From contig JAUXNX010000003.1 of assembly GCA_030682575.1 (NCBI GenBank), forward strand, positions 186,001 to 250,000: a DNA stretch of 64,000 nt, read 5' to 3'. Shown here piece by piece: positions 32,464 to 49,404 of the stretch; positions within the stretch are counted from its first letter, which is position 1; the number at the start of each line of letters is the position of its first letter. The position numbers and the translations under genes were made by a program. A model generated the notes under the pieces. The model saw only the letters and a list, made by a program, of their open reading frames with translations. It searched no databases and was not told where the DNA came from. This DNA is from Gammaproteobacteria bacterium (lineage in GTDB: Bacteria; Pseudomonadota; Gammaproteobacteria; Pseudomonadales; Pseudohongiellaceae).

Positions 32464-33822
32464 TCAAGCCTCCGGCGGAACCAGCCAGCTTCCCACGTCC
32501 ATCAGGTCATCTGCGCTCAGCGTTCCCGCTTCGCGTTTCAGCAACAGGTTGAACTTGATCAGTTCGTAGCGCGCCCTGTGCAGATCGCGTTCGGCGTTGA
32601 AACGATCACGCAGCGCGTTGAGAACATCAACGCTGGTGACGGTGCCAAGTTCAAAGCCACGCTGCATGGCGGTCAACGAAAGCTCGGTGGATGCTGCAAG
32701 GCGCTCGGCAGCCTGGATTCGCAGTTCTGCAGATTTGACCTGAAGGTAGGCCGTGCGGGTGCGTTCGACAATCTCCAGTTGCACCTGGCGCAACTCATTC
32801 TGTGCGATGTTGCGCATGCTGCTGGCTTCGCTGACGGAGGCGCGGTTGGCGCCACCGGCGAAGAGCGGAATCGACACATCAATACCGACATAGGTGGTGT
32901 CGGTTCTGCTCGGCAGACGCGCGTTGTCATAACCCAGATCAGACAGCTGTTGCTGGGCAATCAGCGAGACACGCGGCATGTAGGTGCCACGTTGCTGGGA
33001 AACACGTTTGTGAGCTGCCTCGACAGCATACTCCCGGGCAATGATCTGCTGATTGTTTTCTCTGGCTCTGTCCAGCCAGACAGTCACTGCTTCGGTAACC
33101 GGTGGTACTGCAACATTCTCATCCAGCCGGAACAGCTCTCCCACATTGACTCCGGTGATCGAGCGCAGTCTTTCGCGTGCCAGCGCCAGTATGCTCTCCA
33201 GCTCCAGTTGCTCGGACTGCACGGCGGCCTGTCGTGCCTGGGCGGCATAAAGATCGGTAATTTGTGCTGCCTGCAGATTGTAGAGACTCTGCACCTGCGC
33301 AAGTTGGTTGTTCACTGCGTTCAGTTCCGTCTGGATGGAGGTAACGGCGTCATCTGCCTGCAGTACTTCAAAATATTTCTCAGCGACATCCGTGAGCAGC
33401 CATGCCAGCTCTGCGAAGTATTCTGCCTCTGCCTGATCCTCAAGCAAAGCGGCAGCGCTGCGCGCTGAAAATGCCTGCCAGTTGAACAGTACCTGAGTCA
33501 ACTGCAGGGAATAGCGTTCACCGCGATACTGATTGGTGTTGTTCTGCAGTTCCTGAGTGTTGTCCGAAATGGTGCCATTGGCGTTGAGCTGAGGCAGCAA
33601 CTGGCCGGTAGCCTGTTGCTTGCGCGCAGTGCCTATGCTCCAGCGCTCCTCGGCGATTCGCAATCGTGGACTGTAATCCATTGCTGCAACGAAGAAGTCT
33701 TCAAGCGTGGAACCTTCAACGACAATTCTGGTGGAACCGTCCTGCTGTTCTGCACTGAAGGCAGGTGTTGCCCAAGTGAATAACAGGCCAAGACAGAGAG
33801 CGGGAAGCCGGGAGTTTTTCAT
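32464..33822 (-). CDS. TolC-family outer-membrane protein of a type I secretion system
   Basis: The outer-membrane channel of a type I secretion system. The 452-residue protein has a signal peptide (ALCLGLLFTWATPAFSAEQ) and two OEP repeats of about 200 residues: the first with DYSPRLRIAEERW and YSLQLTQVLFNW, the second with VGIDVSIPLFAGG and RTAYLQVKSAELRIQ. It is separated by five bases from the HlyD gene. This is a dedicated channel rather than the general drug-efflux TolC, judged from context. Confidence 0.92.
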   Translation of the reverse strand: MKNSRLPALCLGLLFTWATPAFSAEQQDGSTRIVVEGSTLEDFFVAAMDYSPRLRIAEERWSIGTARKQQATGQLLPQLNANGTISDNTQELQNNTNQYRGERYSLQLTQVLFNWQAFSARSAAALLEDQAEAEYFAELAWLLTDVAEKYFEVLQADDAVTSIQTELNAVNNQLAQVQSLYNLQAAQITDLYAAQARQAAVQSEQLELESILALARERLRSITGVNVGELFRLDENVAVPPVTEAVTVWLDRARENNQQIIAREYAVEAAHKRVSQQRGTYMPRVSLIAQQQLSDLGYDNARLPSRTDTTYVGIDVSIPLFAGGANRASVSEASSMRNIAQNELRQVQLEIVERTRTAYLQVKSAELRIQAAERLAASTELSLTAMQRGFELGTVTSVDVLNALRDRFNAERDLHRARYELIKFNLLLKREAGTLSADDLMDVGSWLVPPEA

Positions 33823-33827
33823 ACTTG

Positions 33828-35186
33828 TCAGTCTTCAATCAGGCTGCGCGCCAGCGCACTGGAAAATGGTTTGAATACGTACTGCAGGAATGTACGCGAG
33901 CCGGAGTTGATGAAGACTTCAGCAGGCATGCCTGGTACCAGTACGAGATCGCCCAGTGTCGTCACGCCTTCGGGGGTAACAGCTACCCTGGCCTGGTAGT
34001 AGGGAGCACCAGTCGCCTGGTCTGTCAGAGTGTCGGCGGAAACGTTGATGACATTGCCCATGATGTGCGGAACCTTCCTGCCAAAGCTTGAGAAGCTTAT
34101 CGTCGCATCCTGGCCAATGCTGACGCGGTCAATGTCCAGCACCGAGACTCTTGCCTCGATGATCAGTTCGTCTGTCTGCGGAACAATCTCCGCGACAGGT
34201 GTTCCTGGTCCGATCACGGCCCCTATGGTATGAATCTGCAGGCCGTTGATGACGCCATCTACAGGTGCGCGGATCACGGCTCTCTCGACAATATCGGTCA
34301 ACGCTGTGGTACGTTCACGCGAGTCCTTCAGGCGCGTCTGAGTCTCACTGAGATTATTTGCGACCTCGGCAAGAAACTCATTCTTCATTTGCAGGATCTG
34401 TAATCTCGTTTCGCCGATTTGCATTTCTGTTGATGAGATTGTTGCCAGCAACTCTGCTGCTTCTCCGGATTGCATGGCGTAGTTGCGCTCAACGTCTCGC
34501 AGCCGCATCTTGTCGGCAAAGCCCTCCTTCAGAAGAGCCCTTACATCATCCAGTTCATCAGAAAAGGATTCTGCCAGCATCAACTTGCTGGTGCGCATGG
34601 CTTCAAGGCCGATCAATCGCGACTTCAGTTGTTCGATTCGCTGTTCCAGAACGGCAATGCCGCCATCGCGCGCCGCCGTGCGAGCCTGGAAAATTTGTGT
34701 CTGCGCTTCCATCTCTGCGATGGCATTGGCATTGCCATTCAACAACGCAGCAGGATATACAACGGTGGGCAGGTTATCGCGTTCGGCAATCAGACGCGCT
34801 TCCATCGCCATCAGGGCTATCATCTGTGCGTTGACGATTTCAAGCTGAGCCTGCGACTGGGTGCTGTCCAGTACCATGATAGGGGCGCCTGTGGCCACAT
34901 GATCCCCATTCTGCGCGAGGATATCGTTGACGATGCCGCCTTCCAGATGTTGAACCACTTTCTTGTATGACTTCACCATGACGATGCCGGGCGCATGAGC
35001 AGCCCCTTCGATTGGCGCCAGAGCAGCCCAGAGTCCGAAAACACCGAACACGAGTACGGCAATGATGATTCCGGCACGTTGCGGTGAGTCCACGCCAGTC
35101 TCAACGCTCGGTGTGGCGACCTCTCTGGACGCCGCCGGCGCTGCCAGCACCGGCAGCTGGTCTTGTGTAGACTTGGATGTTGTCAC
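33828..35186 (-). CDS. HlyD/PrtE-family membrane fusion protein
   Basis: The periplasmic adaptor of the type I system. The 452-residue protein has one N-terminal membrane helix (GIIIAVLVFGVFGLWAALAPIEG), the lipoyl-like motif KVVQHLEGGIVNDILAQNGD, long coiled-coil hairpins (about 95-290) and the C-terminal beta-barrel with VPGMPAEVFINSGSRTFLQY. These match the PrtE/HasE/LapC group. The start is GTG at 35186. It lies 38 bp after the ABC ATPase gene. Confidence 0.93.
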   Translation of the reverse strand: MTTSKSTQDQLPVLAAPAASREVATPSVETGVDSPQRAGIIIAVLVFGVFGLWAALAPIEGAAHAPGIVMVKSYKKVVQHLEGGIVNDILAQNGDHVATGAPIMVLDSTQSQAQLEIVNAQMIALMAMEARLIAERDNLPTVVYPAALLNGNANAIAEMEAQTQIFQARTAARDGGIAVLEQRIEQLKSRLIGLEAMRTSKLMLAESFSDELDDVRALLKEGFADKMRLRDVERNYAMQSGEAAELLATISSTEMQIGETRLQILQMKNEFLAEVANNLSETQTRLKDSRERTTALTDIVERAVIRAPVDGVINGLQIHTIGAVIGPGTPVAEIVPQTDELIIEARVSVLDIDRVSIGQDATISFSSFGRKVPHIMGNVINVSADTLTDQATGAPYYQARVAVTPEGVTTLGDLVLVPGMPAEVFINSGSRTFLQYVFKPFSSALARSLIED

Positions 35187-35223: not shown

Positions 35224-36945
35224 TCAACTGGCAGTGGCCGCTTTGCGAGATTCCGGTTGTGGCAGCAGGGCAGCCAGCACCTGATCCCGCGCTCCGAAGT
35301 TGACTGCGGCACCGTCCTTCATTACCAGAATCTTGTCGACGCTCAAAAGCAACATGGTTCGATGCGTAATGACTACGACCGTGCAATTTTGTGATTTAAC
35401 TCTATTCAGCGCGGCAACCAGTTCTTTCTCGCCCTGATCGTCCAGATTGGAGTTGGGTTCATCGAGTACCAGCAGACGGGGATTACCATAAACGGCCCTG
35501 GCCAGACCAATGCGTTGACGCTGACCACCGGACAGAATGCCGCCGCTACTGCCAATGTGTGTGTCATAGCCATTCGGAAGACGCAGAATGAGCTCATGGA
35601 CACCAGCCAACCTGGCGGCTTCAACGATGCGCTCCGCATCAGCTTCTCCGAAGCGACAAATGTTCTCGGAGATAGTGCCGTCGAACAATTCGATGTCCTG
35701 GGGCAGGTATCCCACATACGGGCCGAGCTCGCTGCGATCCCAGGCGGAAATATCTGCACCGTCAAGGCGCACCTTGCCGCTACCCGTTGGCCAGATGCCC
35801 AGCAGCGCACGCGCAAGACTGGACTTGCCGGAAGCGCTGGGCCCCACAATGCCGAGGGCTTCGCCTGCGTTCAGTGTAAAGCTCACTCCGCGCACGACAG
35901 CTGTCGTTGATCCAGGCGGTACGACAAACACCTGCTCTGCACTCAGGTTGCCGACCGGTGCGGGAAGGGACATTCTTTCCTCATCCTGCGGGACATTCTC
36001 AAGCAACTGCTCAAGGCGCTCGTATTGTGCTCTCGCCAGGGAGAAACCTTTCCAGCTGCCAACGAGCATATCGATTGGTGCAAGAGCCCGACCCAGCAGC
36101 AATGAACCACCGATCATCATGCCCGGAGAGATTTCATGCCGGAGCGCCAGCATGGCACCCATGCCCAGAACCAGGGACTGGGTAATGATCCGGAAGGTCT
36201 TCGAGACACTGGAAAGCAGCGCTCCCAATTTGCTTGCATCGGTCTGCAATGAAAGCACCCGGTCGGCACGCTTTTGCTGACGCTCACGGACGTTATCGAC
36301 CATTCCCATTGCTGCAATCACTTCGGCGTTGCGGACACTGCCGCCGATCTGGCTGTTGACCCAGTTGGACTCGGTGTTGGCGTCCTTGAGTCTTTTCGTT
36401 GTAACAACTTCCGTGGCGTATGCCAGGGCCACCATCAGGATACCGGCGACTATCCCCGCTATTCCGAACCATGGATGAAACATGAACATGATGCCGATAT
36501 AGATCGGGTACCAGGGCGCGTCGAAGAACGCGAACAAACCATTACCGGTCAGGAATTGTCGCAGTGCGGTGAGGTCGTTGGTGGGTTGTGCGCCGTTGTT
36601 GATGTTGCCGGTCTGCAATGCATGTTTGAAGGTTGCGCTGAAGATGCGTTGTCGCAGTTTTTGCTCGATTCTGTTGCTGGCGTTGATCATGATCATTGAT
36701 CTGACCCATTCGAAGCCCCCCATTGCCATCATGAGAAAGACCATGATCAGTGTCAGCATCGCCAGGGTCGAGAAGCTGCCGCTTGAAATCACGCGATCGT
36801 AGATCTGCATCATGTACAGAATCGGGACGAGCATCAGAATATTGACGGCGGCGCTGAAAAAGCCGGCATACGTGACATGCTGACGTATGGCTTTCAGGGC
36901 ATCAAATAGCTCAGAGTTGCGGGACGAGGGTTTATTGTCTTTCAT
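35224..36945 (-). CDS. Type I secretion permease/ATPase (PrtD/HasD/RsaD-like)
   Basis: An ABC exporter half-transporter for proteins with C-terminal secretion signals. The 573-residue protein has a six-helix membrane domain (MLVPILYMMQIYDRVISSGS is the family's helix 1 motif) and a nucleotide-binding domain. The latter shows Walker A GPSASGKSSLARAL, PYVGYLPQDIELFDGTISENI, signature LSGGQRQRIGLARAV, Walker B LLVLDEPNSNLD and the switch His in VVITHR. There is no N-terminal C39 peptidase domain, which suits RTX or S-layer type substrates. The likely substrate is the protein at 43220-46849. Confidence 0.94.
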   Translation of the reverse strand: MKDNKPSSRNSELFDALKAIRQHVTYAGFFSAAVNILMLVPILYMMQIYDRVISSGSFSTLAMLTLIMVFLMMAMGGFEWVRSMIMINASNRIEQKLRQRIFSATFKHALQTGNINNGAQPTNDLTALRQFLTGNGLFAFFDAPWYPIYIGIMFMFHPWFGIAGIVAGILMVALAYATEVVTTKRLKDANTESNWVNSQIGGSVRNAEVIAAMGMVDNVRERQQKRADRVLSLQTDASKLGALLSSVSKTFRIITQSLVLGMGAMLALRHEISPGMMIGGSLLLGRALAPIDMLVGSWKGFSLARAQYERLEQLLENVPQDEERMSLPAPVGNLSAEQVFVVPPGSTTAVVRGVSFTLNAGEALGIVGPSASGKSSLARALLGIWPTGSGKVRLDGADISAWDRSELGPYVGYLPQDIELFDGTISENICRFGEADAERIVEAARLAGVHELILRLPNGYDTHIGSSGGILSGGQRQRIGLARAVYGNPRLLVLDEPNSNLDDQGEKELVAALNRVKSQNCTVVVITHRTMLLLSVDKILVMKDGAAVNFGARDQVLAALLPQPESRKAATAS

Positions 36946-37148: not shown

Positions 37149-37847
37149 TCAAAGTTCCTTGCGGCCCTCGGCCAGCTCTCTGAGAACCTCAAGATCATTG
37201 ATGTGCAGTCGGGAGGGGCCATCTCGCTTGACGATCTGTTGCACCTGCAGGGACTGGAAGACCCGGGTGACGGTTTCCCGGCTCAAGTTCAACATGATGG
37301 CGATTTCCATATGGGTGGGGGGGTTGTTGATGAGAGACTGGGAGCGCCCTGTCTTGTCTTCTTCGGGCACCAGCATCCAGAGTTGGCAACAGACTCTCTG
37401 GTTGATGCTGGGAAGTCCCAGCAATGAGCGTTGTCGCGTCATTTGCCGCAATCGGGCGGCGAGCCTCTCTCCCAACACTTTTACGAGGCCGGGCTGGTTC
37501 AGCATAAGCTCGCTGATCGTCTCCATAGGTATGAATACAGTGACGGCAGCAGTAAGCGCGATGACGTATTCAGGTTGGGGGCCGCGGTCGAAAAGCCCGA
37601 GTTCTCCACAGAAGTCGCCCGGTTCCACGAAATACAGCCCCACTTCCCTGCCGTCAATGGTAAAGTCCACACCTTGCAGTCTGCCTTCGAAGAGGAAGCA
37701 CAGGCAGTCCTCCCGTACCCCTGCATTCAGCACGATTCCGCGTCGTGCGAACTTGCGCAGGGTAGCCAGCGGAGCCATCTGGCTCAGGACGTCGTAGGGC
37801 AGTTGCTTGAGGAGAGGGAAGGCGCTTAACAGCTCTGGGGTCACCAC
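37149..37847 (-). CDS. Crp/Fnr-family transcriptional regulator
   Basis: A regulator of about 232 residues with an N-terminal cyclic-nucleotide-binding fold (GLYFVEPGDFCGELGLFDRG) and a C-terminal winged helix. The recognition helix LSRETVTRVFQSLQ keeps the Arg, Glu and Arg that CRP uses to read TGTGA. The position of E. coli CRP Arg82, which binds the cAMP phosphate, is Pro here (GPQPEYV), so the ligand may not be cAMP. The open frame reaches an ATG at 37904, but that ATG lies inside a TATAAT box, so the GTG at 37847 is preferred. It lies between the secretion operon and fecR, divergent from fecR. Confidence 0.85.
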   Translation of the reverse strand: MVTPELLSAFPLLKQLPYDVLSQMAPLATLRKFARRGIVLNAGVREDCLCFLFEGRLQGVDFTIDGREVGLYFVEPGDFCGELGLFDRGPQPEYVIALTAAVTVFIPMETISELMLNQPGLVKVLGERLAARLRQMTRQRSLLGLPSINQRVCCQLWMLVPEEDKTGRSQSLINNPPTHMEIAIMLNLSRETVTRVFQSLQVQQIVKRDGPSRLHINDLEVLRELAEGRKEL

Positions 37848-37902: not shown

Positions 37903-37931
37903 ATTATATGGAGTTGAAGGCGAATAGCAAA
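37903..37931 (-). promoter_or_regulatory. Promoter of the Crp/Fnr-type regulator gene
   Basis: On the minus strand TATAAT (37908-37903) lies 17 bp after TTTGCT (37931-37926). The inferred start of transcription near 37896 puts the CRP-type palindrome at 37951-37966 about 62 bp upstream, close to the class I position of -61.5. This supports autoregulation. Confidence 0.55.
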
Positions 37932-37950: not shown

Positions 37951-37966
37951 TGTGACTGTAATCACC
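37951..37966. promoter_or_regulatory. CRP-type operator 1, between regulator gene and fecR
   Basis: TGTGACTGTAATCACC matches the CRP consensus TGTGA-N6-TCACA at nine of ten defined positions. It lies in the divergent region, 92 bp from the fecR start. Its centre is 29.5 bp before the TATCTT element at 37988, that is at -41.5 relative to an inferred start at 38000. Confidence 0.78.
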
Positions 37967-37987
37967 CGAAAATTCGGGCCTCTGAGG

Positions 37988-37993
37988 TATCTT
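37988..37993 (+). promoter_or_regulatory. Candidate -10 element of the fecR operon
   Basis: TATCTT, placed relative to operator 1 exactly as TATCCT is placed relative to the operator before the surface-protein gene. No -35 hexamer is needed in a class II activator promoter, and none is evident. Confidence 0.55.
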
Positions 37994-38057
37994 TTGCTAC
38001 CACTGTGAATAACTGCCGGGCGCGTCCGGAAGCAACTCCCCGTGTGGAGGAAGAATC

Positions 38058-39488
38058 ATGAATTCAGGTTTCCATTCGATAATCTCAACCGCTGGTCGCC
38101 GTGCGACCCGGCTTATGGGTATTACGGCTCTGTTCGTGTTCGGCCATGGCGCCGCGACCAGCGCTCATGCTGACGAGCTTGCGGGGGTTGGGAAGGTCAG
38201 TCTGGTGTTGGGCAAGGCCTACCTCGAATCCGCAGGCAAGCCCCGTCAGCTCATACGATCAGGCACAGAAATTCATGTCAACGACCAGATAGTCACAGAA
38301 GCCAACGGTCACGTTCACATCCGCTTTGTCGATTCTGCCTTGGTAAGTGTCCGTCCGGACAGTCTGCTGGAAATCGTGCGCTACGACTATGACGCACACA
38401 ATCCGACGCAGTCTTCCATCAAGCTGAATCTCGTCGAAGGTGTCACTCGCGCCATTTCAGGTGACGGTGCCCGATCTGCACGCGAACGCTTCCGCCTTAA
38501 TACCCCGATTGCCGCCATCGGTGTGCGCGGTACCGATTTTGTGGTCAGTGCCACTGGCCAGTCAGTGCGAGCCCTGGTCAACGAAGGGGCGATTGTGTTG
38601 GCGCCCTATTCCAGTGAATGTCTTGCCATTGCCTTCGGCCCCTGTGCAGTCAATGCGGTAGAGCTGACCCAGGAGTCTTTGCAGGTAGTACAGCTGGATG
38701 GCAGCACTCCTCTGCCCAGACTGGTGCCTGCTCCCGATGAGAGAGGGCCTCTGACGCGCGAAGAGGTAGAAATAGCAGATGTTGATTCCGGTGCTGAAGA
38801 AAAGACGGTCGGAACAGGAGTCTATCTTGAAACAGTGACTTCCAGAAGGGTCACTGAAGTCGCCAGCAATACAGTTGTCCCTCCCGTAAAGCCTGGCCCT
38901 GGGCCAGTGACACCGCCAGTAATTCGTGACTATACGCCGAGCGCGGGTGTGGCCAGCAGTGCTCTGCTTGGCCAGCAGATGGTTTGGGGGCGCTGGACCG
39001 AGGGTCAGGGCGCCAATGAGCGTATCACCCTGGCGCTGAATGAAGCGCAGCAAGGGCGTGCAGTGACTATCAGCGGGTCCGCCAAGCCGGTTGGTTTTGG
39101 CAACGAGTACGGGCTTTTCCGGGTTGAAACTGATGGTACCCGAGTGGCTGCGGGACTGGGTGTGGTTACTTTCGGTCTTGATACCGCTCAGGCTTTCTTT
39201 CATTCCGAAACTGGCGTTGTAGCCATGCAAGTCAACAGCGGCAGTCTGAGCGTCGATTTCAATCAGAACAATTTTTCCACTCAGCTGGGGCTCAATCACG
39301 CCACTACTGGCCGGGTGGATTTCTCGGCGGCGGGCAGGATTTCTGACGGCGGCTATTTCCACAACAATACGGATACTCAGACTATGGCAGGCGCGGTCAG
39401 CATTGATGGTGCAGAGGCCGGCTATTACTTTGAGAAACAACTCAACAGTGGCAGCGTGAAGGGTCTCACTCTTTGGGACAAGCAGTAA
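38058..39488 (+). CDS. FecR-domain periplasmic protein
   Basis: A 476-residue exported protein with a signal peptide ending near ATSAHADE. The FecR domain (about residues 65-185) includes GTEIHVNDQIVTEANGHVHI, SLLEIVRYDYD and RLNTPIAAIGVRGTDFVV. A Pro-rich linker (VKPGPGPVTPPV, about 277-290) leads to a C-terminal domain of about 180 residues rich in Gly, Asn and beta strands. It lacks the transmembrane helix of classical FecR and no FecI sigma factor is nearby. The ATG at 38058 follows GGAGGAAG. It leads an operon with the CHASE2-cyclase. A sensing or cell-wall-associated role is likely; the ligand is unknown. Confidence 0.85.
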   Translation: MNSGFHSIISTAGRRATRLMGITALFVFGHGAATSAHADELAGVGKVSLVLGKAYLESAGKPRQLIRSGTEIHVNDQIVTEANGHVHIRFVDSALVSVRPDSLLEIVRYDYDAHNPTQSSIKLNLVEGVTRAISGDGARSARERFRLNTPIAAIGVRGTDFVVSATGQSVRALVNEGAIVLAPYSSECLAIAFGPCAVNAVELTQESLQVVQLDGSTPLPRLVPAPDERGPLTREEVEIADVDSGAEEKTVGTGVYLETVTSRRVTEVASNTVVPPVKPGPGPVTPPVIRDYTPSAGVASSALLGQQMVWGRWTEGQGANERITLALNEAQQGRAVTISGSAKPVGFGNEYGLFRVETDGTRVAAGLGVVTFGLDTAQAFFHSETGVVAMQVNSGSLSVDFNQNNFSTQLGLNHATTGRVDFSAAGRISDGGYFHNNTDTQTMAGAVSIDGAEAGYYFEKQLNSGSVKGLTLWDKQ

Positions 39489-39490
39489 TC

Positions 39491-41497
39491 ATGCAGAAAC
39501 CTTCCAGCGTCAAACAGCTTTCCGGCCCCCTGGCACATCTTGTGCGACTGGCACCAATTGGCGCACGCCTGTTGATGCTGGCGGCGGCGGCATTGCTGAG
39601 TCTGGCGCTGGTGACAGTGTTTGATGATGCGCTGCAAACCATAGAAGAAAGACTTGGCGCCCTCGGCTGGACCCTGAACTCCGATACCTCTCCTGAACAG
39701 CGCATTACCATCATTGCCATCGATGAGAAGAGTCTTGCGCAGGAAGGCCCCTTTCCCTGGCCGCGCGAGACCATGGCGCGACTGGTGACAGCATTGAATG
39801 AGGCCGGAGTGCAACTGCAGTTGCACGACGTTGTATACCCCGAGGCGAGTGCCGGCGACGACGCTTTGCTGGCTGCATTGCGGGCTGCTCCGGGCGCAGT
39901 ATTGGCGCAGGTTCCCGTGCTGCAGTCCGGGCAGGCTGTGCGCACCGGTTTGATGACCCATGCGTTGTCTGGAGTCAGTTGCAGCGACAGTGGTGCGGCG
40001 CTTGGGCAGACCGGCAGTTTCCTGGGTAACAATGCGACATTTGCGGAAATTCCCAAGGGTCACATCACTCCCATCGTGGCTGGTGATGGCGCTATTCGCG
40101 AAGTGCCTGCTGTCATCTGTGTCGACGGCAATGCCTACCCTGCCCTGGCGATCAGCGCCTTCCTGCAGGCGGTGAACAGCCCGGCCTGGGGTGCCACCAT
40201 AGAGGAAGGCAGCACGCTGTTCGGGCCTGACCAGCTGATGCAGCTTAACGCCTACCCCGGCCTGCGCATTCCGCTGGATGACGCTGGCAATATGCGCATC
40301 TCCTATCGCAACGCCCCGGAAGCCTACCAGGCGATCTCTGCCGCCGATGTTCTCAATGGCGACCATGATGCCGATATGCTCGAAAACGCCTGGGTGCTGG
40401 TTGGCGCAACAGCCTTTGGTATTGGCGATATTGTCCCTACTCCGTACAGCGGCGCGACACCTGGTGTGGAACTGCAGGCGCGCATGCTCACCAGCCTGCT
40501 CGATACCGCCGTGCCTTACACGCCGGCTGCCGCCACAACTTTGCTGGTGCTGTTGAGTGGCTTGTTTGCCGTGATTCTGTTTGTGCTGGCGAGTGCCCGC
40601 GAGCGATTCGCAAGCTACGGCCTGCCTGCAGCAGGTGTGCTGCTGCCAGTATTCGCGCTGGCGCTGCATGTGCAGTTGCTTGGCAGCAGTGATATCTGGC
40701 TTGGCTGGGTTGGTCCGGCCGTTTATGGTCTGTGCGCCGCCAGTTTCCTGATGCTGCTCGAACAGGCCCGTGTTCGTCATGAGCGTGGTCGTGTTTTCGG
40801 CAACCTGAACAGTTATCTGCCCAGTGATGTTGCCAGAGAGATTGCCTACAGCCTGCCCAGCTCCAGCATCAATGCCAAGCGCAGCGAAGTCACTTTACTG
40901 AGTGCCGACCTGCGTAATTTCTCTGCCTTCGGCGAAGCCCGTCCCCCGGAAGAATCGGCTGCCCTGTTGCACTACTTCTTTGTGCGAGCCACTGAAATCG
41001 TGGAAGAGCACCACGGCAGGATTCACGAATTCAAGGGCGACAGTCTCCTTGCGGTGTGGGATGGCCATGACGCCCAGGCGGCTGCCCAGGCCCTGCTGGC
41101 GGCTCAGGAAATGCAGGCATCAATCAACAAGGATATGCCTCAGAATCCGCCCGAAGGTCTGGAGCCGCTTGCTCTTGGCATCGGCATTGAACAGGGCCCG
41201 GTACTGATCGGGTCGATTGGTCCGGCACAGCGCCGCACGCACACTCTGCTGGGCGATACCGTCACCATCACATTGCGGATACAGGAGATGACGGCAGAGC
41301 TGGCTCAGCCGATTCTGGTAGGTGAGTGTGCCGCGCGTCAGCTCGCCGATCAGAAGCTGGAATCACAAGGAAGTTATCTGCTGAGCGGGTTGAGAATTCC
41401 TCACACCCTCTTCTCGCCATCGCTGTCTGACACCACTCCGCGCCGCAGCAGGCAGGACCAGGTGGCCCTGACGGTCGTTTCCGGCGGCCGTCGATAG
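39491..41497 (+). CDS. CHASE2-domain class III nucleotide cyclase
   Basis: A membrane receptor cyclase of about 668 residues: an N-terminal helix, an extracytoplasmic CHASE2 domain (about 50-340), three helices (about 345-430) and a class III cyclase domain (about 465-645). Both metal Asp residues are present (LSADLRNFS and FKGDSLLAVW). The substrate-specifying Lys of adenylate cyclases corresponds to Glu in RIHEFKGD, and the transition-state Asn of GDTVN is Thr (LGDTVTITLRI), while the Arg is kept. Activity and nucleotide are therefore uncertain. It starts two bases after the fecR stop; a TTG at 39473 is an alternative start. Confidence 0.88.
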   Translation: MQKPSSVKQLSGPLAHLVRLAPIGARLLMLAAAALLSLALVTVFDDALQTIEERLGALGWTLNSDTSPEQRITIIAIDEKSLAQEGPFPWPRETMARLVTALNEAGVQLQLHDVVYPEASAGDDALLAALRAAPGAVLAQVPVLQSGQAVRTGLMTHALSGVSCSDSGAALGQTGSFLGNNATFAEIPKGHITPIVAGDGAIREVPAVICVDGNAYPALAISAFLQAVNSPAWGATIEEGSTLFGPDQLMQLNAYPGLRIPLDDAGNMRISYRNAPEAYQAISAADVLNGDHDADMLENAWVLVGATAFGIGDIVPTPYSGATPGVELQARMLTSLLDTAVPYTPAAATTLLVLLSGLFAVILFVLASARERFASYGLPAAGVLLPVFALALHVQLLGSSDIWLGWVGPAVYGLCAASFLMLLEQARVRHERGRVFGNLNSYLPSDVAREIAYSLPSSSINAKRSEVTLLSADLRNFSAFGEARPPEESAALLHYFFVRATEIVEEHHGRIHEFKGDSLLAVWDGHDAQAAAQALLAAQEMQASINKDMPQNPPEGLEPLALGIGIEQGPVLIGSIGPAQRRTHTLLGDTVTITLRIQEMTAELAQPILVGECAARQLADQKLESQGSYLLSGLRIPHTLFSPSLSDTTPRRSRQDQVALTVVSGGRR

Positions 41498-41615
41498 TCC
41501 TTCCTTTATATGGCGCCGGGTTGCACCGGGGCTTTTGAATCATGATAATTGCCCGCAATTTCAATAAACGACATATGCTCAGCTATGTCCACGGCATGTC
41601 CGGAACCCAGGGTGT

Positions 41616-42920
41616 ATGCGTCGGTCTGCTCTTTCTCTTTTATTCCTGATACCACTGTCAGTGCAGGCCTGTCCTGACCTGCAGCCTTTTTATCTTCTCG
41701 ATTCTTCCGAACAGGCCATGCAGCTTGAAGTGCAGTTGGGATCCTTGATGTCCGAGTGTCTCAACAGCTCCGAGTTCTTTGCACTCTATGGGGCTGCCCA
41801 GATGGACGTCGGCAAGCTGGCCGAGGCGCTTGAGACGCTGGAGCGGGCGCTTCTGCTGGACCCCGACAATGGTGCAGCCCAGATTGACTATGCACAGGCT
41901 CTCTATTTGCGTGGACAGTTGTTTTCGGCACTGGATTTGAATGATCAGACTCTGCAGCGGCAGGACCTGCCGCCGGATATCCAGGTTTTGCTGCAAGAAA
42001 GAAGACAGCAATGGCGTCGACAGACCAGGCAGCGTGCCTTTCATGCGGATGTCCTTGCGGGCTACGACAACAACCTCAATGGTGCGCCGGACCCCAGCCA
42101 GATCACACTGACCATTGCCGGTGAGCCAGTGATCCTGACTCTCAATGAGGAATACCGTCCAATCAGTGGCCCCTACCTGAATCTGCGCGCAGGCGGGCAG
42201 TATCGGCAGCTGGCCTCCGATCATCAGCACAGCCTCGTTGCTGAATTACGAGGTCGGGCAAGTCAGGACAGCCCGTCCGATCTGCTGCAGTTCGAAAGTC
42301 ATTACATCTACACCCGACCGCGCCGCGACCATACCTGGCAGTTCGATACCGGCCTGAGTCATTTGCTGTTTGGCGGCAGCCCCCTCTACACAGCTGCCGA
42401 AGGTGGTGCGCTATACCAGACAGTCATGCGCAACCAGTGCGTGCCCGGCTTCCGCTTTACCGCGCAGTACCAGCTCTATCACAACCAAAGCAATCTCAAC
42501 TCGATTGAGAGCAGGGCCAGTGCGGGCCTCGATTGCCCTCTGTCAATTGCTGCGCGGCCAACCCTGATTGGCGGGGAAATCTCTGTATTGAACAGCAAGG
42601 CGGTCAATGATGGCCGGCCTGGTGGTGGCAGAGATGGCTGGCAGCTCAAGCTGAGCTGGCAGTTTCCCCTGCTTGGCGGAGTGCTGGACAACCAGTTGCA
42701 CCATGCTCACTTGCGAGACAGAACCGGCTACAGCCCTCTGCTGGATAACGGTGCTGAACGCTGGCTGGGCCGCACTTATTTGCTGATGCAATATCGCCAG
42801 CCGCTGCTCACCGATATCTCCCTGGTGGTGAATTTCTATCACCAATACCAGCGCAGCAACATTGAACTGTTTGACAGCCTTGACACGACCTTCGAGGTAG
42901 GCATCAGCGCTGCGTTCTGA
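41616..42920 (+). CDS. TPR plus beta-barrel outer-membrane protein
   Basis: A 434-residue exported protein of unknown function. After a signal peptide (SALSLLFLIPLSVQA) come tetratricopeptide-like helices (about 40-125; LAEALETLERALLLDPDNGAAQ is a clear TPR). The second half alternates aromatic and polar residues in strands such as HTWQFDTGLSHLLFGG and YLLMQYRQPLLTDISLVVNFYHQY, and ends in Phe (GISAAF), the usual outer-membrane barrel signature. The layout resembles Slam-type surface assembly proteins, but homology is not demonstrated. It lies between the sensor genes and the surface-protein gene, which suggests a role in anchoring or assembly. Confidence 0.72.
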   Translation: MRRSALSLLFLIPLSVQACPDLQPFYLLDSSEQAMQLEVQLGSLMSECLNSSEFFALYGAAQMDVGKLAEALETLERALLLDPDNGAAQIDYAQALYLRGQLFSALDLNDQTLQRQDLPPDIQVLLQERRQQWRRQTRQRAFHADVLAGYDNNLNGAPDPSQITLTIAGEPVILTLNEEYRPISGPYLNLRAGGQYRQLASDHQHSLVAELRGRASQDSPSDLLQFESHYIYTRPRRDHTWQFDTGLSHLLFGGSPLYTAAEGGALYQTVMRNQCVPGFRFTAQYQLYHNQSNLNSIESRASAGLDCPLSIAARPTLIGGEISVLNSKAVNDGRPGGGRDGWQLKLSWQFPLLGGVLDNQLHHAHLRDRTGYSPLLDNGAERWLGRTYLLMQYRQPLLTDISLVVNFYHQYQRSNIELFDSLDTTFEVGISAAF

Positions 42921-43219
42921 AACCCCACATATCTGTTATAAAATAGATGCTTACAATCGAGTGTTAATGAAAGAAACAGGTTGTGTTCGGTGTGGACTGC
43001 TAGTACCATCGCCGAGCGTGTCCGCTTGTGGTCAGGAATTATCGATTAACCCAAGTGGGAGTAATCACGGAAACGTGGGAAATTTTCTTCAGTGTGACTG
43101 CAGTCACAAGGGGGAATGGTTGACTTGCGTATCCTTGGCACAACCGAGTGGGGTCATCCGCTGTTATTGGCGTGTCACAATCGGATAAAACAAATTGGAA
43201 TTAATTTAAGGAGTTACAA
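42921..43219 (+). promoter_or_regulatory. 299-bp control region of the surface-protein gene
   Basis: This region holds no supported gene. It contains the perfect CRP-type palindrome at 43093-43108, an extended -10-like TTGCGTATCCT (hexamer 43130-43135) and a strong ribosome site AAGGAG at 43208-43213, seven bases before the ATG. The inferred leader is about 78 nt. A TTGACT at 43120-43125 overlaps the activator zone but is not spaced to the -10 used here. Confidence 0.65.
43093..43108. promoter_or_regulatory. CRP-type operator 2, before the surface-protein gene
   Basis: TGTGACTGCAGTCACA is a perfect 16-bp palindrome and a full match to TGTGA-N6-TCACA. It shares TGTGACTG-A-TCAC with operator 1. 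Its centre (43100.5) is 29.5 bp before TATCCT at 43130, the same spacing as at fecR. Confidence 0.85.
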
Positions 43220-46200
43220 ATGGCTATAACAGTCGAAGCTCGTACCGAGATTATCAGCCTGGTGGTAGGCATGTTCAGTGCCGCACCAGGTGCAGCGGTT
43301 CTTGACGATCTATCAGCAGAAATTCTGGCAGGCTCCACAATGAAGCAGTTGGCTGCAAAGCTGGCTCTTACCGCTCAGTTCCAGGGGCTATTCCCGCCTT
43401 CAGCCATGACCAACTCGGAATTCGCTACCAAGCTGGTTCAACAGCTGGTTGGTAACGAAGTTCCTTCTGCAGACAAAGCGGCTGCGGCTGTTGAAATCAC
43501 TGCCATGCTGGCTGGCGGCGCAAGCCGTTCTTCAGTCATCGTTGACGTGATTGCAGTCCTGAAATCAGTTCCCGAGACTCACACAGTGTGGGGCGCCGGT
43601 GCGGCAGCGTTCAACAACAAGGTTGAAGTGGCAGAGTACTTCTCTGTTACCAAACTGCAGAGCGGCGCAACTCTGGAAGTGCTGCAGAACGTCATTTCAG
43701 GCGTGGGCAGCAGCCAGGCCAGCGTAGATACAGCAATTGCCGGCATCAACAACGAGATCCTGCAAGGTACTACTTACGCGCTGACAGCAGGTGTTGACGG
43801 AGTTCAAGGCACCAACGCCAACGACATCATCACCGGTATCTTCGGCGACGCAACCAATGCGAACAACACCTACAATGCCGGCGACGTCATTGATGGTGCT
43901 GCAGGTACAGACATTCTGAACCTGATCGCCCAGGGCACCACTGCCTCTACAGCTGCGGCCATCGTCAAGAACGTTGAAACCATCAACATCCTGGATACCG
44001 TTGGCGCAACTTTCAATGCCGCCCTGGTTGAAAACGCACCAGCCATCAACTTCACCAACACACAGGCAAGCAACCTCTCCACTGTAAACGGTGCAGCCCA
44101 GGCTTCCGTGATCGGTCTGGCTGGCAAGGGCAACCTGAAAGTAGACTACGCAACCACCAGCGCTGTTCTGACCAATGATGCTGCCAAACTGTCGCTGACT
44201 GCCGTAGGTACTTCCACTACTGCCCGCAGCACCGTGGATGTGTCCGATGCCAACACCATTGACACCGTCAGCATTGCCACTACAGGCAGCAACTTCGTGA
44301 CTCTGACAGCAGGTACTGCTGCCAAGACTGTGACAATCACTGGTTCCGGAACCAACAACTTTGACGTGTCTGCGGCTGGTGCCGTGGCTGCTGTTGTGAC
44401 TCTGGATGCCTCTGCTGCCACTGGCGCGAACACATTCGTGATGGGCGACACGCTCAACACGACTGACGTGATCAAGGGTGGTAGTGGTGCTGATACCGTC
44501 ACAGCCAACCTGAAGACTGCAACATTGGTCAGCCCAACCATGACCAGCATCGAGACGCTGTCTGCTGACTTCGACGCTGCCGGAACGATTGATCTGTCCG
44601 GTTCTGTTGGCCTGAAGACAGTCACTCTGACTGGTTCTTCCGAGAATCAGACTTTGACCAAGGCAGCCTCTACAGTGACCACGTTGAACGTGTCCAGCCA
44701 GACAAGTGCTGCTGACACCAACAACGTTGTAGCGTTCGGCTTCGCCACTGCAAGTGCTCTGACCGTGAACGTGGGCAGCGCAGCCGCAACAGCGACCAAT
44801 ATGACCATTGCAGATCTGCAGTTGACCAAGGTGAATGCACTGACGCTGAACGGCGTTGGCACCAAGGTCAATGACATCAACAGCAGCATCGATCTGAGTG
44901 CTGGTCTGAGCGCACTGACCATCAGCGCGGCTGCGGGTTCAACCTTCGAACACCAGGGCGTTATGGCTAACGGCAATATCGGCCCCGTGAAGTTCACTAT
45001 CGGTGCTGAAGCCACTTACTCCGGCGGTGTGTATGCCGAAGGCGATATTGGTGATGTAACCATTACTCTGGGCACTGACTCCTATTTCGAAGCCTGGCTT
45101 GATACGGATAAAGGCAGTGTTGGCAACATCACTGTTACCGGTACAGGTGAATTGAACATGGGTATGGGCATCTCCGGCGGTGACCTCGGCAACGTATCCA
45201 TCACGCTTGATGGTGACGGCGCCGCTAATTCCTACTTCGGAGCACTTGTCAGTGGTGGTTCGATTGGCAACATCTCTGTTTCCGTGGATAACGGTGCGAG
45301 CATTGGCATATGGGTCAGTGCACAGGCATACGATTACGAGGTTAATGGTGGCCATATCGGCAATATCACACTGAGCATCGGTGAAGACTCTCACATTTCT
45401 GGTAATTTCGAAGCAGAGACAGGTGACATTGGTAACATCAGCATCAGCCTGCACGGTGACGATTCTACAGCGAATTTGTGGTTTGAGGCTCAGTATGTTT
45501 CCGGTGATCCAGGCACGGGCCAGCAGTACATCCGTGGCGGCAACATCGGCAACATCAACATCCAGATGGCGGGTGATGATTCCTACCTGAGCGCCGGTTT
45601 CGAAGCCAGCGGTGGCAGCATCGGCACAGTGACGATTGCACTGACTGGTGAAGGTGCGGAAGCGAATCTGTACCTCGCTGCACGACAGCCGTCTGACACA
45701 GTTGGAGCTCCATCCAGCAACGACATCGGTGCCATCACCATCACTTCCAACGATGAGGCGGAAGTCAACATGTACCTCAGCGCGGAAAACACCATCGGTG
45801 CGATCACAGCGAACATGGGTCATGACAGCGATCTGTACATCAACTTCTCCGGTGGCGGTAACGATGGTGAAGCAGTATTCACCGGCCTGACTGTCACCAT
45901 GGGCAATGATGCAGACTTCGATCTGCGTGTGTCCGGTTACGGTGGCGAGATTGGTAACATCACTGGAACCTTCGGCAACAGAGCAGAAGTGGACATCTGG
46001 CTGTCTGACGTCAGTGGTGACATTGGCAGCATTTCCATAACGGCCGGTAACGCTGCAGACATCGACATATTCCTGTCCGGCAACGGCGGCGATGTGGGTA
46101 ATATCAGTGTGACTGCCGGCAACAACTCTGACGTGCTTATCCACGCCAGTGGCAGCAACGGCGACATCGGTTCAATCACCCTGACCGGTGGTGACAGCAG

Positions 46201-46849
46201 CAGCGATGCCGAAGTGTACTTCACTGACCCAACCGGTTCCATTGCAGGTATAACAGCCACTGCATGGAATGGTTTCCTCACCGTGAACCTGAGCGGTGTG
46301 ACACTGGGTACTAGTATCGCTGTAGGTGGCGGTGGATCGTCGGTGCGCGGTACTGAAGGCGCGGACAACATCCTTCTCGGTGCGAAGACAGACACAGTTG
46401 TGTTTGACAGCTCGCCTACCGCGATCGATACGATCTTCAACTTCACGACTGGCAGCGGCACTACCAAGGACGTGCTGGATGTAAGCAACTCCATCGCTGG
46501 TGGTCTGAACGCAACTGTGTTCTCAACCAACCCTGTTGGAGCAACTGAACTGGCCGTTAACACCATCATCCGTCTGGCAGACATTGCTGGCGGCAACGAC
46601 ATCACCACAGCGGCTGGCCTGACTGCAGCTCTGAACGCTGGTGGCGAGTTTGCCAACCTTGATGCGGTGTCGGCTGGTGCAACGGTTTACACGTTCATCA
46701 CTTCTGCCTCTACCTCATCAAGCACGTTCTACGTGTTCAATGCGGCGTCGGTCGATGCAACTACCGACTTCAGCAGTGTCACGCTGGTGGGTGTAGTGAA
46801 TGCAGTGTCCGGCGGACTGAGTGGTTTGAATATTGCCAACTTCGCATAA
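43220..46849 (+). CDS. S-layer/RTX-like type I secreted surface protein
   Basis: A 1209-residue protein without an N-terminal signal peptide and with no cysteine that I can find. It is rich in Ala, Thr, Gly, Ser, Asn and Asp. Residues 1-170 are helical (EIISLVVGMFSAAPGAAVLDDL; AAFNNKVEVAEYFSVTK), like the N-terminal regions of RsaA-type S-layer proteins. Residues 185-570 are beta-rich with degenerate RTX-like spots (GTNANDIITGIFGD; GGSGADTVTANL). About 580-1010 hold a ~24-residue repeat array. The last 160 residues have GTEGADNILLGAKTDTVVFD and a hydrophobic tail, as in type I substrates. It is likely exported by the PrtD-like system encoded upstream. Surface-layer function is inference. Confidence 0.8.
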   Translation: MAITVEARTEIISLVVGMFSAAPGAAVLDDLSAEILAGSTMKQLAAKLALTAQFQGLFPPSAMTNSEFATKLVQQLVGNEVPSADKAAAAVEITAMLAGGASRSSVIVDVIAVLKSVPETHTVWGAGAAAFNNKVEVAEYFSVTKLQSGATLEVLQNVISGVGSSQASVDTAIAGINNEILQGTTYALTAGVDGVQGTNANDIITGIFGDATNANNTYNAGDVIDGAAGTDILNLIAQGTTASTAAAIVKNVETINILDTVGATFNAALVENAPAINFTNTQASNLSTVNGAAQASVIGLAGKGNLKVDYATTSAVLTNDAAKLSLTAVGTSTTARSTVDVSDANTIDTVSIATTGSNFVTLTAGTAAKTVTITGSGTNNFDVSAAGAVAAVVTLDASAATGANTFVMGDTLNTTDVIKGGSGADTVTANLKTATLVSPTMTSIETLSADFDAAGTIDLSGSVGLKTVTLTGSSENQTLTKAASTVTTLNVSSQTSAADTNNVVAFGFATASALTVNVGSAAATATNMTIADLQLTKVNALTLNGVGTKVNDINSSIDLSAGLSALTISAAAGSTFEHQGVMANGNIGPVKFTIGAEATYSGGVYAEGDIGDVTITLGTDSYFEAWLDTDKGSVGNITVTGTGELNMGMGISGGDLGNVSITLDGDGAANSYFGALVSGGSIGNISVSVDNGASIGIWVSAQAYDYEVNGGHIGNITLSIGEDSHISGNFEAETGDIGNISISLHGDDSTANLWFEAQYVSGDPGTGQQYIRGGNIGNINIQMAGDDSYLSAGFEASGGSIGTVTIALTGEGAEANLYLAARQPSDTVGAPSSNDIGAITITSNDEAEVNMYLSAENTIGAITANMGHDSDLYINFSGGGNDGEAVFTGLTVTMGNDADFDLRVSGYGGEIGNITGTFGNRAEVDIWLSDVSGDIGSISITAGNAADIDIFLSGNGGDVGNISVTAGNNSDVLIHASGSNGDIGSITLTGGDSSSDAEVYFTDPTGSIAGITATAWNGFLTVNLSGVTLGTSIAVGGGGSSVRGTEGADNILLGAKTDTVVFDSSPTAIDTIFNFTTGSGTTKDVLDVSNSIAGGLNATVFSTNPVGATELAVNTIIRLADIAGGNDITTAAGLTAALNAGGEFANLDAVSAGATVYTFITSASTSSSTFYVFNAASVDATTDFSSVTLVGVVNAVSGGLSGLNIANFA
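44967..46260 (+). repeat. ~24-residue G-x-I-G-x-I repeat array within the surface protein
   Basis: About 17 imperfect coding repeats, each with G-[DSNGH]-[IVL]-G-[NSDTA]-[IV] followed by a T/S-I-T/S strand and Gly/Asp. Clear copies include EGDIGDVTITLGTD, GGSIGNISVSVDNG, TGDIGNISISLHGD, GGDVGNISVTAGNN and NGDIGSITLTGGDS. Spacing is mostly 23-27 residues, with longer inserts of 31-38 in the middle. The regular strand-turn pattern suggests a beta-solenoid. Confidence 0.75.
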
Positions 46850-47201: not shown

Positions 47202-48566
47202 ATGACTCAAGAGCAAACCCCACCGAAGACAGAGGCAGAACTCAAGCCTCACAACGGCCCCAGTATTCTTTTCGCATCACCCATGAGCATTCTGGACATC
47301 ACCAGTGGTGCTTCGTTGTCCATGCGCACGTTTCTGGCGGCACTGGCTGAAAGAGGCTTTCGCGCTGTGGCGCTGCAGGCAACCCTGTTCGACTCCACCC
47401 ATGGCGGAGAGCATGTGCTGGAAGCCGGCGAGCAGGCCAAGGGCAAGGATATTCTGCGCACGCAGGCACTGGGTATCGAGCACATCATCGTGCGTACCAA
47501 GGCGTCACGTCGCCCTGATATGACATGCGAAGAGCAGGAAAGGTACATAAAGTGTTTTCGTCTCGAGCTGCGCGACCGCCGTCCCGACATGATCATTCTC
47601 TGGGGAGGCATGCTGCTGGAGATGAACATCATGCGCGAGGCGCGTGAACTCGGCATCCCCGTCATCTTCTATCTGGTCAACAGCGGCTACAATTTCAAGG
47701 ACACCTTCCGTTACGTGTCCGCCATCATCACGGATTCGCAGTCCACCGCAGATATGTATCGCGAGCGCCACAATCTGCTCTGTCATCCGATTGGCAAATT
47801 CATCGATACCAAGCTGATCAAGGCGCCGGAGCGCAAGCCAGACTACATCACCTTCATCAACCCCAGTTTCGAGAAAGGCGTGAACGTGTTCATGCCTTTG
47901 GCAAAGCTGGCGGCGGAGGAATGCCCCGAGATCAAGTTTCTGGTGGTGCAGAGCCGTGGGCGCTGGGATGTCGCGCTCAAGACACTCAAGTTCAACGCCA
48001 CGGACTTCCCCAACGTCAGCATCATTGGCCACCAGCGTGACATGCGCAAGGTCTACGCCAATACCCGGGCATTGCTGTTGCCTTCAGTGTGGTACGAGAG
48101 CGGCGCGCGGGTGATCCCGGAGGCTCTGCTCAACGGCATTCCAGTGGTGGCGAGCAATACCGGTGGTTCGAAGGAGCTGGTGGGGAAGGCGGGTGTACTG
48201 TTTGATCTGCCCGAAGACGTGCGAGAGAAGAAACTCATTCCAGCAACTGTGGAGGTGGTACGCCCCTGGCTGGAGGAGATCAAGCGACTCTGGCACGACG
48301 CCGACTACTACCAGGCATTGTGTGCACAGGTGGATGAAGAGGCGAAAAAGCACGATATTCAGCGCAGCGTTGACCGTTTCCTTGCCATTGCCGACCCCAT
48401 CGTGCAGGACAGCAAGATAGCCGTGCAGAAGGTGCTGGAAGCAAAGAAGAAAGCGGCGGCTGGCGCAACGGTGCCACAATCGACAGCGGCCAAGGACGTC
48501 ATCAAGGCGGCCTTGAATCGCAAGCAGGCACAGCAGAAGAGTCGCAACAAGAAGAAGGCGAAATAG
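47202..48566 (+). CDS. Family GT4-like glycosyltransferase
   Basis: A 454-residue GT-B glycosyltransferase. The N-terminal half contains SGASLSMRTFLAALAERGFRA (acceptor-side fold). The C-terminal half has the donor-binding region YESGARVIPEALLNGIPVVASNTGG with the two Glu residues of the EX7E motif. The C terminus is Lys/Ala-rich (AQQKSRNKKKAK). It is cytoplasmic, with no signal or membrane helix. It opens the modification gene block after the terminator. Substrates are unknown; glycosylation of the surface protein or of an exported glycan is possible. Confidence 0.85.
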   Translation: MTQEQTPPKTEAELKPHNGPSILFASPMSILDITSGASLSMRTFLAALAERGFRAVALQATLFDSTHGGEHVLEAGEQAKGKDILRTQALGIEHIIVRTKASRRPDMTCEEQERYIKCFRLELRDRRPDMIILWGGMLLEMNIMREARELGIPVIFYLVNSGYNFKDTFRYVSAIITDSQSTADMYRERHNLLCHPIGKFIDTKLIKAPERKPDYITFINPSFEKGVNVFMPLAKLAAEECPEIKFLVVQSRGRWDVALKTLKFNATDFPNVSIIGHQRDMRKVYANTRALLLPSVWYESGARVIPEALLNGIPVVASNTGGSKELVGKAGVLFDLPEDVREKKLIPATVEVVRPWLEEIKRLWHDADYYQALCAQVDEEAKKHDIQRSVDRFLAIADPIVQDSKIAVQKVLEAKKKAAAGATVPQSTAAKDVIKAALNRKQAQQKSRNKKKAK

Positions 48567-48621
48567 CCGCGCCATTCTCGACGCCTTCCCTATCAACACA
48601 GAACACAGCAGTCATCACGAC

Positions 48622-49404
48622 ATGGCCATCAGAATTTCCGACAAGAACCGCAGAGAGATGAGTGCGGAGCGGGATTTTCCCGCGACCGTTCCCGTGAAGT
48701 CGCGCTACTGTATTTTGTCCAGCCCTCGCTCTGGCAGTACCTTGCTGGGCCGGATGCTGTACGAGACCGGCCTGGCCGGTGACCCGCAGGAATACTTCAA
48801 TCCGCCGTTGCTGGAGATAGAGCGTCAGACAACCGGTAATTCCGAACTCGATATCAACGCCTTCATGCGCAACATGGAGCGCCGCCGCACCTCGCCCAAT
48901 GGCGTGTTTGGCATGAAGCTGCACTACTCGCAGATGCTCGGAGTGTTTCGCGAACGCCAGCCCAACAAGAACATGCTGCAACTGCTGGCACAATTCTCAA
49001 AGCTGATCTGGATACGCCGCCGCGATCGCCTGTCGCAGGCCATTTCACAGGCGGTGGCCCTGCACACGCAGGTGTGGAGTTCCGAGGACTCCGGTCATGG
49101 CAAGAGCAAGAACATCAACGTGCACCCATTCGAATGTGTGCGTGCACTGAACATGGTCGCGGGCGACGACTTTGGCTGGGAGCGATTGATTGCAGCTGCA
49201 GGACTGCAGGTTCACACGGTCTGGTACGAAGACCTGGTGGCCGACTACGAGAAGCAGTGCCGTGGCGTGTTGCGCTTTCTCGATCTGGAACAGTCGGTGA
49301 GCAATATCCCCGCGCCGCCACTCGAACGACAGGCAGGCGAGATCAACAAGCAATTGCGCGCCGAGTTGCTGAATTACCTGGGTTCTGACGAGGAACAGGA
49401 ATGA
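48622..49404 (+). CDS. Stf0-type sulfotransferase
   Basis: A 260-residue PAPS-dependent sulfotransferase. The 5'-phosphosulfate loop is YCILSSPRSGSTLLGRMLYE, followed by GLAGDPQEYFNPP, a hallmark of the Stf0 family that sulfates trehalose in mycobacteria. A second PAPS-contact region is LIWIRRRDRLSQAISQAVA. Later residues VHTVWYEDLVADYEKQC fit the core fold. It overlaps the next gene by four bases (ATGA), so it is translated with the adenylation-carrier-sulfotransferase fusion. The acceptor is unknown; a sugar is plausible from the family. Confidence 0.87.
   Translation: MAIRISDKNRREMSAERDFPATVPVKSRYCILSSPRSGSTLLGRMLYETGLAGDPQEYFNPPLLEIERQTTGNSELDINAFMRNMERRRTSPNGVFGMKLHYSQMLGVFRERQPNKNMLQLLAQFSKLIWIRRRDRLSQAISQAVALHTQVWSSEDSGHGKSKNINVHPFECVRALNMVAGDDFGWERLIAAAGLQVHTVWYEDLVADYEKQCRGVLRFLDLEQSVSNIPAPPLERQAGEINKQLRAELLNYLGSDEEQE

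Follow-up and report, generated by a model that had tools for sequence, protein, structure and literature searches.

Paired CRP-type operators with class II spacing at a sensor operon and a surface-protein gene of Pseudohongiellaceae point to one local Crp/Fnr-type activator

The window analysed here is a whole stretch of 64,000 nucleotides from a gammaproteobacterium of the family Pseudohongiellaceae (assembly GCA_030682575.1, contig JAUXNX010000003.1, positions 186,001 to 250,000, forward strand). It carries the gene of a Crp/Fnr-type regulator, P0001, which diverges from a sensor operon beginning with fecR, and beyond this operon the gene of a probable surface protein, P0005. A CRP-type operator lies before the fecR operon (site 1) and another before the P0005 gene (site 2). 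A sequence-only reading of the window had proposed that one activator drives both. The proposal is well supported by the conservation of the two promoters among relatives and by the occurrence of their common pattern, which tracks P0001 and not the housekeeping regulator Vfr. The features concerned are as follows.

37149–37847, minus strand: P0001, Crp/Fnr-type regulator and proposed activator (PF13545 and PF00027 over cut-off)
37951–37966, plus strand: operator of site 1, TGTGACTGTAATCACC, between the P0001 gene and fecR
37988–37993, plus strand: predicted -10 element TATCTT of the fecR operon, at +29.5 from the site 1 centre
38058–39488, plus strand: P0002, FecR-domain protein (PF04773, 48.4 bits, cut-off 24)
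39491–41497, plus strand: P0003, CHASE2 sensor with a class III cyclase domain (PF05226, 145 bits; PF00211, 46.7 bits)
41616–42920, plus strand: P0004, TPR protein (TPR_19 over cut-off)
43093–43108, plus strand: operator of site 2, TGTGACTGCAGTCACA, before the P0005 gene
43130–43135, plus strand: predicted -10 element TATCCT of the P0005 gene, at +29.5 from the site 2 centre
43220–46849, plus strand: P0005, repetitive protein of 1209 amino acids without a Pfam or PDB relative

The operators are centred at 37958.5 and 43100.5, each 29.5 bp 5' of its -10 hexamer, and are identical at 13 of 16 bases; these values, already given by the sequence-only reading, were read off the window again and are correct. 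At a class II CRP promoter the activator is centred at -41.5, with a -10 element and no -35 element. Judged from the predicted -10 positions, both promoters have this layout. No -35 box was recognised, as the best TTGACA match at 16–18 bp was no better than at random positions: at least four of the six bases matched in 9/80 loci at site 1 and 0/49 at site 2, compared with 11% at random. The same geometry would also allow P0001 to repress these promoters instead of activating them, since a regulator bound at -41.5 would cover part of the -35 region and could stand in the way of polymerase. With TTGACA matches at the random level and a fixed 29.5-bp distance to the -10 element that fits polymerase contact, we consider repression quite unlikely.

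The half-sites alone prove little, because the loose CRP motif occurs at chance level. Enrichment of TGTGA-N6-TCACA was sought in the window and in the whole genome, and none was found: 17 matches with at most two mismatches in the window against 36.96 expected, and 77 per strand with at most one mismatch in the genome against 79 for the reversed control. Genome-wide enrichment was accordingly dropped as an argument. The whole genome was also scanned with an extended motif, a check of the kind that the sequence-only reading had suggested. Exact matches to TGTGACTGNANTCAC, a pattern composed after both sites were known, were confined to sites 1 and 2 in the 3.73-Mb genome of the window (G000), giving three strand hits because site 2 is a palindrome; allowing up to two mismatches raised the number of hits to 45 and 40, compared with 39 and 59 for the control. 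Conservation is a stronger test than the motif match in this one genome.

Of the 88 further genomes in which P0001 was strongly matched, 80 contributed a locus (all except G065, G076, G088, G110, G114, G118, G121 and G130). Site 1 could be tested in 79 of these and in the window, one contig (L132) ending before fecR, and it was present in 80/80 testable loci; outside the window it had at most one mismatch in 78/79, and L155 had two. Site 2 was sought in 60 loci, window included, and was found in 49, those in which the surface gene lies no more than 573 bp from the barrel gene; 48 of the 49 aligned sites were perfect. The 11 loci without it comprise two with no room for it (L105 and L161, where the barrel gene is followed by 89 and 2 bases), six in which no surface-gene homologue was found nearby (L146, L150, L156, L157, L159 and L160) and three (L151, L153 and L154) in which the surface gene lies 2.1–3.4 kb further on, two of these having a perfect operator before it. 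Altogether, 51 of the 52 loci that show the surface gene have the operator in front of it. A chance match to a short palindrome, which the chance frequency of TGTGA-N6-TCACA might have suggested, is hardly credible against such family-wide conservation, and the idea of a shared activator is much stronger with it than two sites alone would allow.

The promoter geometry is conserved as well. At +29.5 the T, A and T columns of the -10 element were filled in 77, 77 and 77 of 80 loci at site 1 and in 44, 42 and 42 of 49 at site 2, which backs the class II spacing of -41.5 predicted earlier for the window. Pairwise identity among the picked sites, each the best match with at most two mismatches and the arm frequencies being conditional on that, was 0.995–1.0 in the arms, 0.28–0.34 for the two bases at the middle of the spacer and 0.28–0.40 in the flanks; all 129 sites had a pyrimidine at position 6 and a purine at position 11. 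The likeness of the two six-nucleotide spacers, once offered as a sign of a common activator, adds little: spacer identity from site 1 to site 2 was 3.14 within a genome versus 2.57 between genomes (n=49), and on this comparison the argument was set aside.

The two sites differ consistently in their last base, which is T in 34, C in 24, G in 20 and A in 2 of the 80 loci at site 1 (non-A in 78/80) and A in 48/49 at site 2. Site 2 would thus be expected to bind more tightly. Such a conserved difference in expected strength is compatible with ordered activation or with a leftward promoter overlapping site 1; on the left of site 1 no full -10 element for a P0001 promoter was seen in the 80 loci, and one strong position, an A at -19.5, was present in 67/80. 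Loci from Marinomonas and Neptunomonas keep site 1 in 5/5 cases, ending in TCACT, with the -10 element one base nearer the operator in the printed sequences; no site resembling site 2 was found after the barrel gene in these five. By eye, site 2 of L131 and L133 is centred in a long near-perfect inverted repeat of about 20 bp on each side.

P0001 belongs to the Crp/Fnr superfamily (PF00027, 50.6 bits; PF13545, 51.4 bits; both over cut-off), and at 69.4 bits it falls far below the cut-off of 266 of the CRP/Vfr equivalog NF008732. Its open reading frame extends to an ATG at 37904; the start is probably the GTG at 37847, as suggested by an in-frame stop within 20 codons upstream in 44/81 loci and by a predicted local distance difference test score (pLDDT) below 50 for residues 1–17. 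The AlphaFold (AF2) model has a pLDDT of 88.9, is CRP-like and matches CRP-family structures, first among them Clr of Sinorhizobium meliloti (7pzb) in Foldseek. Residues were counted in the 69 of 81 orthologues whose extracted frame exceeds 200 amino acids, with numbering after the Escherichia coli CRP sequence. The recognition residues R180, E181 and R185 are kept in 69/69 (SRETVTR in P0001). The Arg-Glu-x-x-x-Arg signature noticed earlier in the adjoining regulator is therefore invariant, and with operators of the TGTGA-N6-TCACA type P0001 has the features of CRP-type DNA recognition.

The ligand pocket is different. At the positions that contact cyclic AMP (cAMP) in CRP and Vfr, in an alignment with a one-residue gap beside this stretch, R82 is replaced by Q in 68/69, S83 by P in 66/69 and T127 by M or L in 69/69; the adjoining A84 is E in 68/69. 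The neighbouring cyclase domain has changed too. Class III cyclases depend on a substrate Lys, an Asn, an Arg and metal-binding Asp residues, and Glu at the position of the substrate Lys is typical of guanylate cyclases. Among the P0003 domains of 66 loci, neither metal Asp is ever replaced (66/66 and 66/66), the Arg is present in 64/66, the substrate Lys is Glu in 66/66 and the Asn is kept in 1/66. Given the altered pocket together with this Glu, P0001 probably responds to something other than classical cAMP. Separately, C69, C99, C172 and H198 are invariant in an alignment of 28 P0001 sequences, C99 lying within the nucleotide-pocket motif, and redox or metal sensing through these residues is possible.

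Which regulator acts at the two sites was approached with a compound pattern, TGTGAY-N4-RTCAC-N22-TANNNT, which was derived from the logos of the aligned site 1 and site 2 loci and is independent only for genomes and places outside them. It gave 161 hits in 137 family genomes, compared with 7 for the reversed pattern, and only three exact sites in G000. The presence of P0001 (E ≤ 1e-20; 89 genomes, being 98 matches less nine weak ones of about 1e-16 to 1e-17) and of Vfr (E ≤ 1e-40) was scored in the same genomes, and the sets were compiled by hand, with totals agreeing with the 97, 96 and 83 of the underlying searches. The pattern occurred in 86/89 genomes with P0001 versus 10/48 without it: 67/68 with both regulators, 19/21 with P0001 only, 4/29 with Vfr only and 6/19 with neither. 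Hence the operator follows P0001, being mostly present with it and mostly absent without it, and the housekeeping Vfr/CRP makes little difference.

These counts bear on the alternative that the general cAMP-Vfr/CRP regulon includes the two sites, the neighbouring regulator being incidental. G000 does encode several Crp/Fnr paralogues, one of them a Vfr-type CRP (345.2 bits against the CRP model) with a REMAGR helix and a canonical cAMP pocket, Arg and Ser standing at the clamp; of three further PF00211 matches in the genome, two carry the catalytic Lys, Asn and Arg and the third is divergent, and the palindrome resembles the CRP consensus. The possibility that a separate housekeeping CRP binds these sites, raised by the sequence-only reading against itself, is thus real for this genome, but it does not extend to the 19 of 21 genomes that keep the pattern with P0001 and without Vfr. 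When 20 of those 21 were run against the curated CRP model, 0/20 passed while both positive controls did; 12 of these genomes reach a completeness of 90% or more, and two are single contigs. As the loose CRP motif is not enriched genome-wide either, we regard the general regulon as an unlikely explanation. An arrangement in which P0001 is the specific activator and cAMP-Vfr a second, global input where present overlaps with the preferred explanation of one local activator. The Arg-Glu-x-x-x-Arg motif in both helices and the pattern in 67/68 genomes with both regulators speak for such a double input, which we consider possible, on balance doubtful.

P0001 relatives (E ≤ 1e-40) were found in 19/390 genomes drawn from the order, 17 from the own family, window's genome included, and 2 from one other family. 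Named records with relatives are mostly uncultured Gammaproteobacteria, Pseudomonadales and Pseudohongiella, with Marinomonas and Neptunomonas in addition. Two records under the name Klebsiella pneumoniae and one under Rhodoferax (L171, L241 and L185 together) carry a P0001-type regulator at 65–75% identity, and their titles look wrong.

The gene cluster around the two sites also includes a type I secretion set to the left of P0001.

32464–33822, minus strand: TolC-type outer-membrane protein (TIGR01844, 231.3 bits, cut-off 225.15)
33828–35186, minus strand: HlyD-type periplasmic adaptor (TIGR01843, 356.4 bits, cut-off 208.65)
35224–36945, minus strand: type I secretion ATP-binding cassette (ABC) transporter of PrtD type (TIGR01842, 746.8 bits, cut-off 510.15)

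The order, with these genes and P0001 on the minus strand and, divergently, FecR, CHASE2 cyclase, TPR/barrel, site 2 and P0005, is shared by most of the 80 loci within the limits of their contigs. From its N-terminus P0002 is probably exported, and the sequence of P0004 suggests that it probably has an outer-membrane barrel. P0005 had been called giant, which 1209 amino acids do not justify. It gave no Pfam match at E ≤ 0.01 and no PDB match at E ≤ 1, homology in other loci lies mostly within residues 1–260, and its neighbours indicate that it is probably a type I-secreted surface protein. Its pattern resembles that of Caulobacter RsaA, which reportedly has a conserved N-terminal anchor, and it may be a surface-layer protein. 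After the P0005 gene, positions 47202–55405 encode a glycosyltransferase, a Stf0 sulphotransferase and non-ribosomal peptide synthetase modules (adenylation, condensation, thioesterase).

Further candidate targets lie outside this cluster. Each of G096, G097 and G108 has, on a contig lacking P0001, a large gene with an operator and -10 element about 120 bp before its ATG; tblastn confirmed those of G097 and G108 as P0005 relatives and did not confirm that of G096, whose start resembles that of G097 by eye. The third compound site of G000 (C28:216131–216173) precedes the gene of a secreted-looking protein of 237 amino acids, and homologues of this protein at 41–82% identity follow the pattern in G035, G040, G043, G044 and G046 as well, so that this third target occurs in 6/14 genomes of the genus. 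The site (L274 4132) adjoins apparent oligopeptide ABC genes. Further small proteins that look secreted also follow compound sites (G044:C1, G028:C3), as does a protein of 1203 amino acids in G081:C1 with a FecR-like stretch by eye (L276, L288 and L289).

Taken together, these results make it very probable that a P0001 dimer at -41.5 on both operators recruits RNA polymerase to the promoters of the fecR operon and the surface-protein gene. P0001 would bind the shared consensus TGTGAY-N4-RTCAC, with a final A at site 2 and usually not at site 1, and act at two promoters that have no recognisable -35 box. The first would supply FecR, the CHASE2 cyclase and the TPR/barrel protein, of which FecR and CHASE2 may serve as sensors, and the second the probable type I-secreted surface protein. 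As site 1 lies between fecR and the P0001 gene, P0001 may also feed back on its own gene. Its activating signal would probably not be cAMP held in the classical manner, and in species with Vfr an added Vfr input is possible.

Several observations weigh against this explanation. The genomes are related, and counts such as 80/80 or 86/89 are not independent events. At site 2 the -10 element is displaced or missing in several loci, with no T at +29.5 in 5/49 and no A in 7/49, and L153 has an in-cluster surface-gene homologue without an operator. P0001 has not retained the residues that form the activating regions of E. coli CRP (K52 is F or H; H159, H19 and K101 are variable), so that polymerase contact cannot be argued by homology. 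Three genomes with P0001 have no exact compound match (G002, G003 and G119) and ten without P0001 have one; among these ten, G120 and G108 represent the same system (a CHASE2 cyclase on the same contig, and the surface gene), G077 has a CHASE2 cyclase on another contig, and the other seven are without explanation. Finally, the Vfr of G000 should read a very similar palindrome.

More speculatively, the locus might form a private second-messenger loop, in which a P0003 product other than cAMP, or a ligand-binding pseudo-cyclase, is read by P0001 through its Q-P-E clamp. Surface-protein synthesis would then be insulated from cAMP-Vfr, and the greater expected strength of site 2 over site 1 would set the order of activation; we offer this as a tentative idea. 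The promoter logic is ordinary, and the receptor and the enzyme are what is unusual. The Crp-family activator has the DNA code of CRP and not its cAMP clamp, the adjoining cyclase shows a matching loss, and the same cells also have an ordinary CRP whose DNA code is nearly identical. This makes the locus a natural case for studying the joint divergence of a second-messenger receptor and its enzyme. It is worth mentioning that a little-studied aquatic family, Pseudohongiella and its relatives, gains a concrete and testable regulon, with operators and promoters defined closely enough for direct binding tests.

Set against known systems, the locus is a class II regulon of CRP type whose regulator belongs to a subfamily that the curated test does not count as CRP. 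It shares with the class II promoters of E. coli CRP and Pseudomonas Vfr the TGTGA-N6-TCACA operator, R180/E181/R185, the centre at -41.5 and the lack of a clear -35 element. In contrast to CRP and Vfr, P0001 stays below the CRP-model cut-off, the R82, S83 and T127 positions are replaced in nearly all orthologues, and G000 has no more than three exact compound sites. The best profile match of P0001 among solved structures is GlxR of Corynebacterium (3r6s, 94.4 bits), a global regulator; by their titles the GlxR structures were solved with cAMP bound, whereas the pocket of P0001 is altered. No paper on this cluster was found in the part of the open-licence literature match lists that was covered.

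A close parallel is Clr of S. meliloti, a Crp-family regulator tied to CHASE2-domain cyclases (PMC13001267) whose targets include FecR-domain and TPR-domain proteins (PMC5498481), as the available portions of these papers describe. P0001 would resemble it in both respects. The Clr consensus given in the accessible text, GTNNCNNNNGNNAC (PMC10127613), fits site 2 of the window, whereas sites with T at position 6 or A at position 11 do not fit it. Among the nucleotide contacts listed there for Clr (G85, E86, R95, S96, T140 and T141; PMC10127613), P0001 keeps the G and E at the CRP-equivalent positions and not R95, S96, T140 and T141 as a set, although the second Thr position is mostly Thr (59/69). 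The portions of the Clr papers at hand describe neither a surface-protein gene nor a divergent cluster of the P0001 kind. A second parallel is the BiofilmReg operon of Burkholderia, which according to the excerpted text consists of a response regulator, a LysM-FecR protein and a CHASE2 histidine kinase (PMC5192318). There too, the genes of a FecR protein and a CHASE2 membrane sensor are neighbours and lie beside that of the regulator; BiofilmReg, as portrayed in that excerpt, uses two-component signalling, whereas the locus described here pairs a cyclase with a Crp/Fnr-type regulator.

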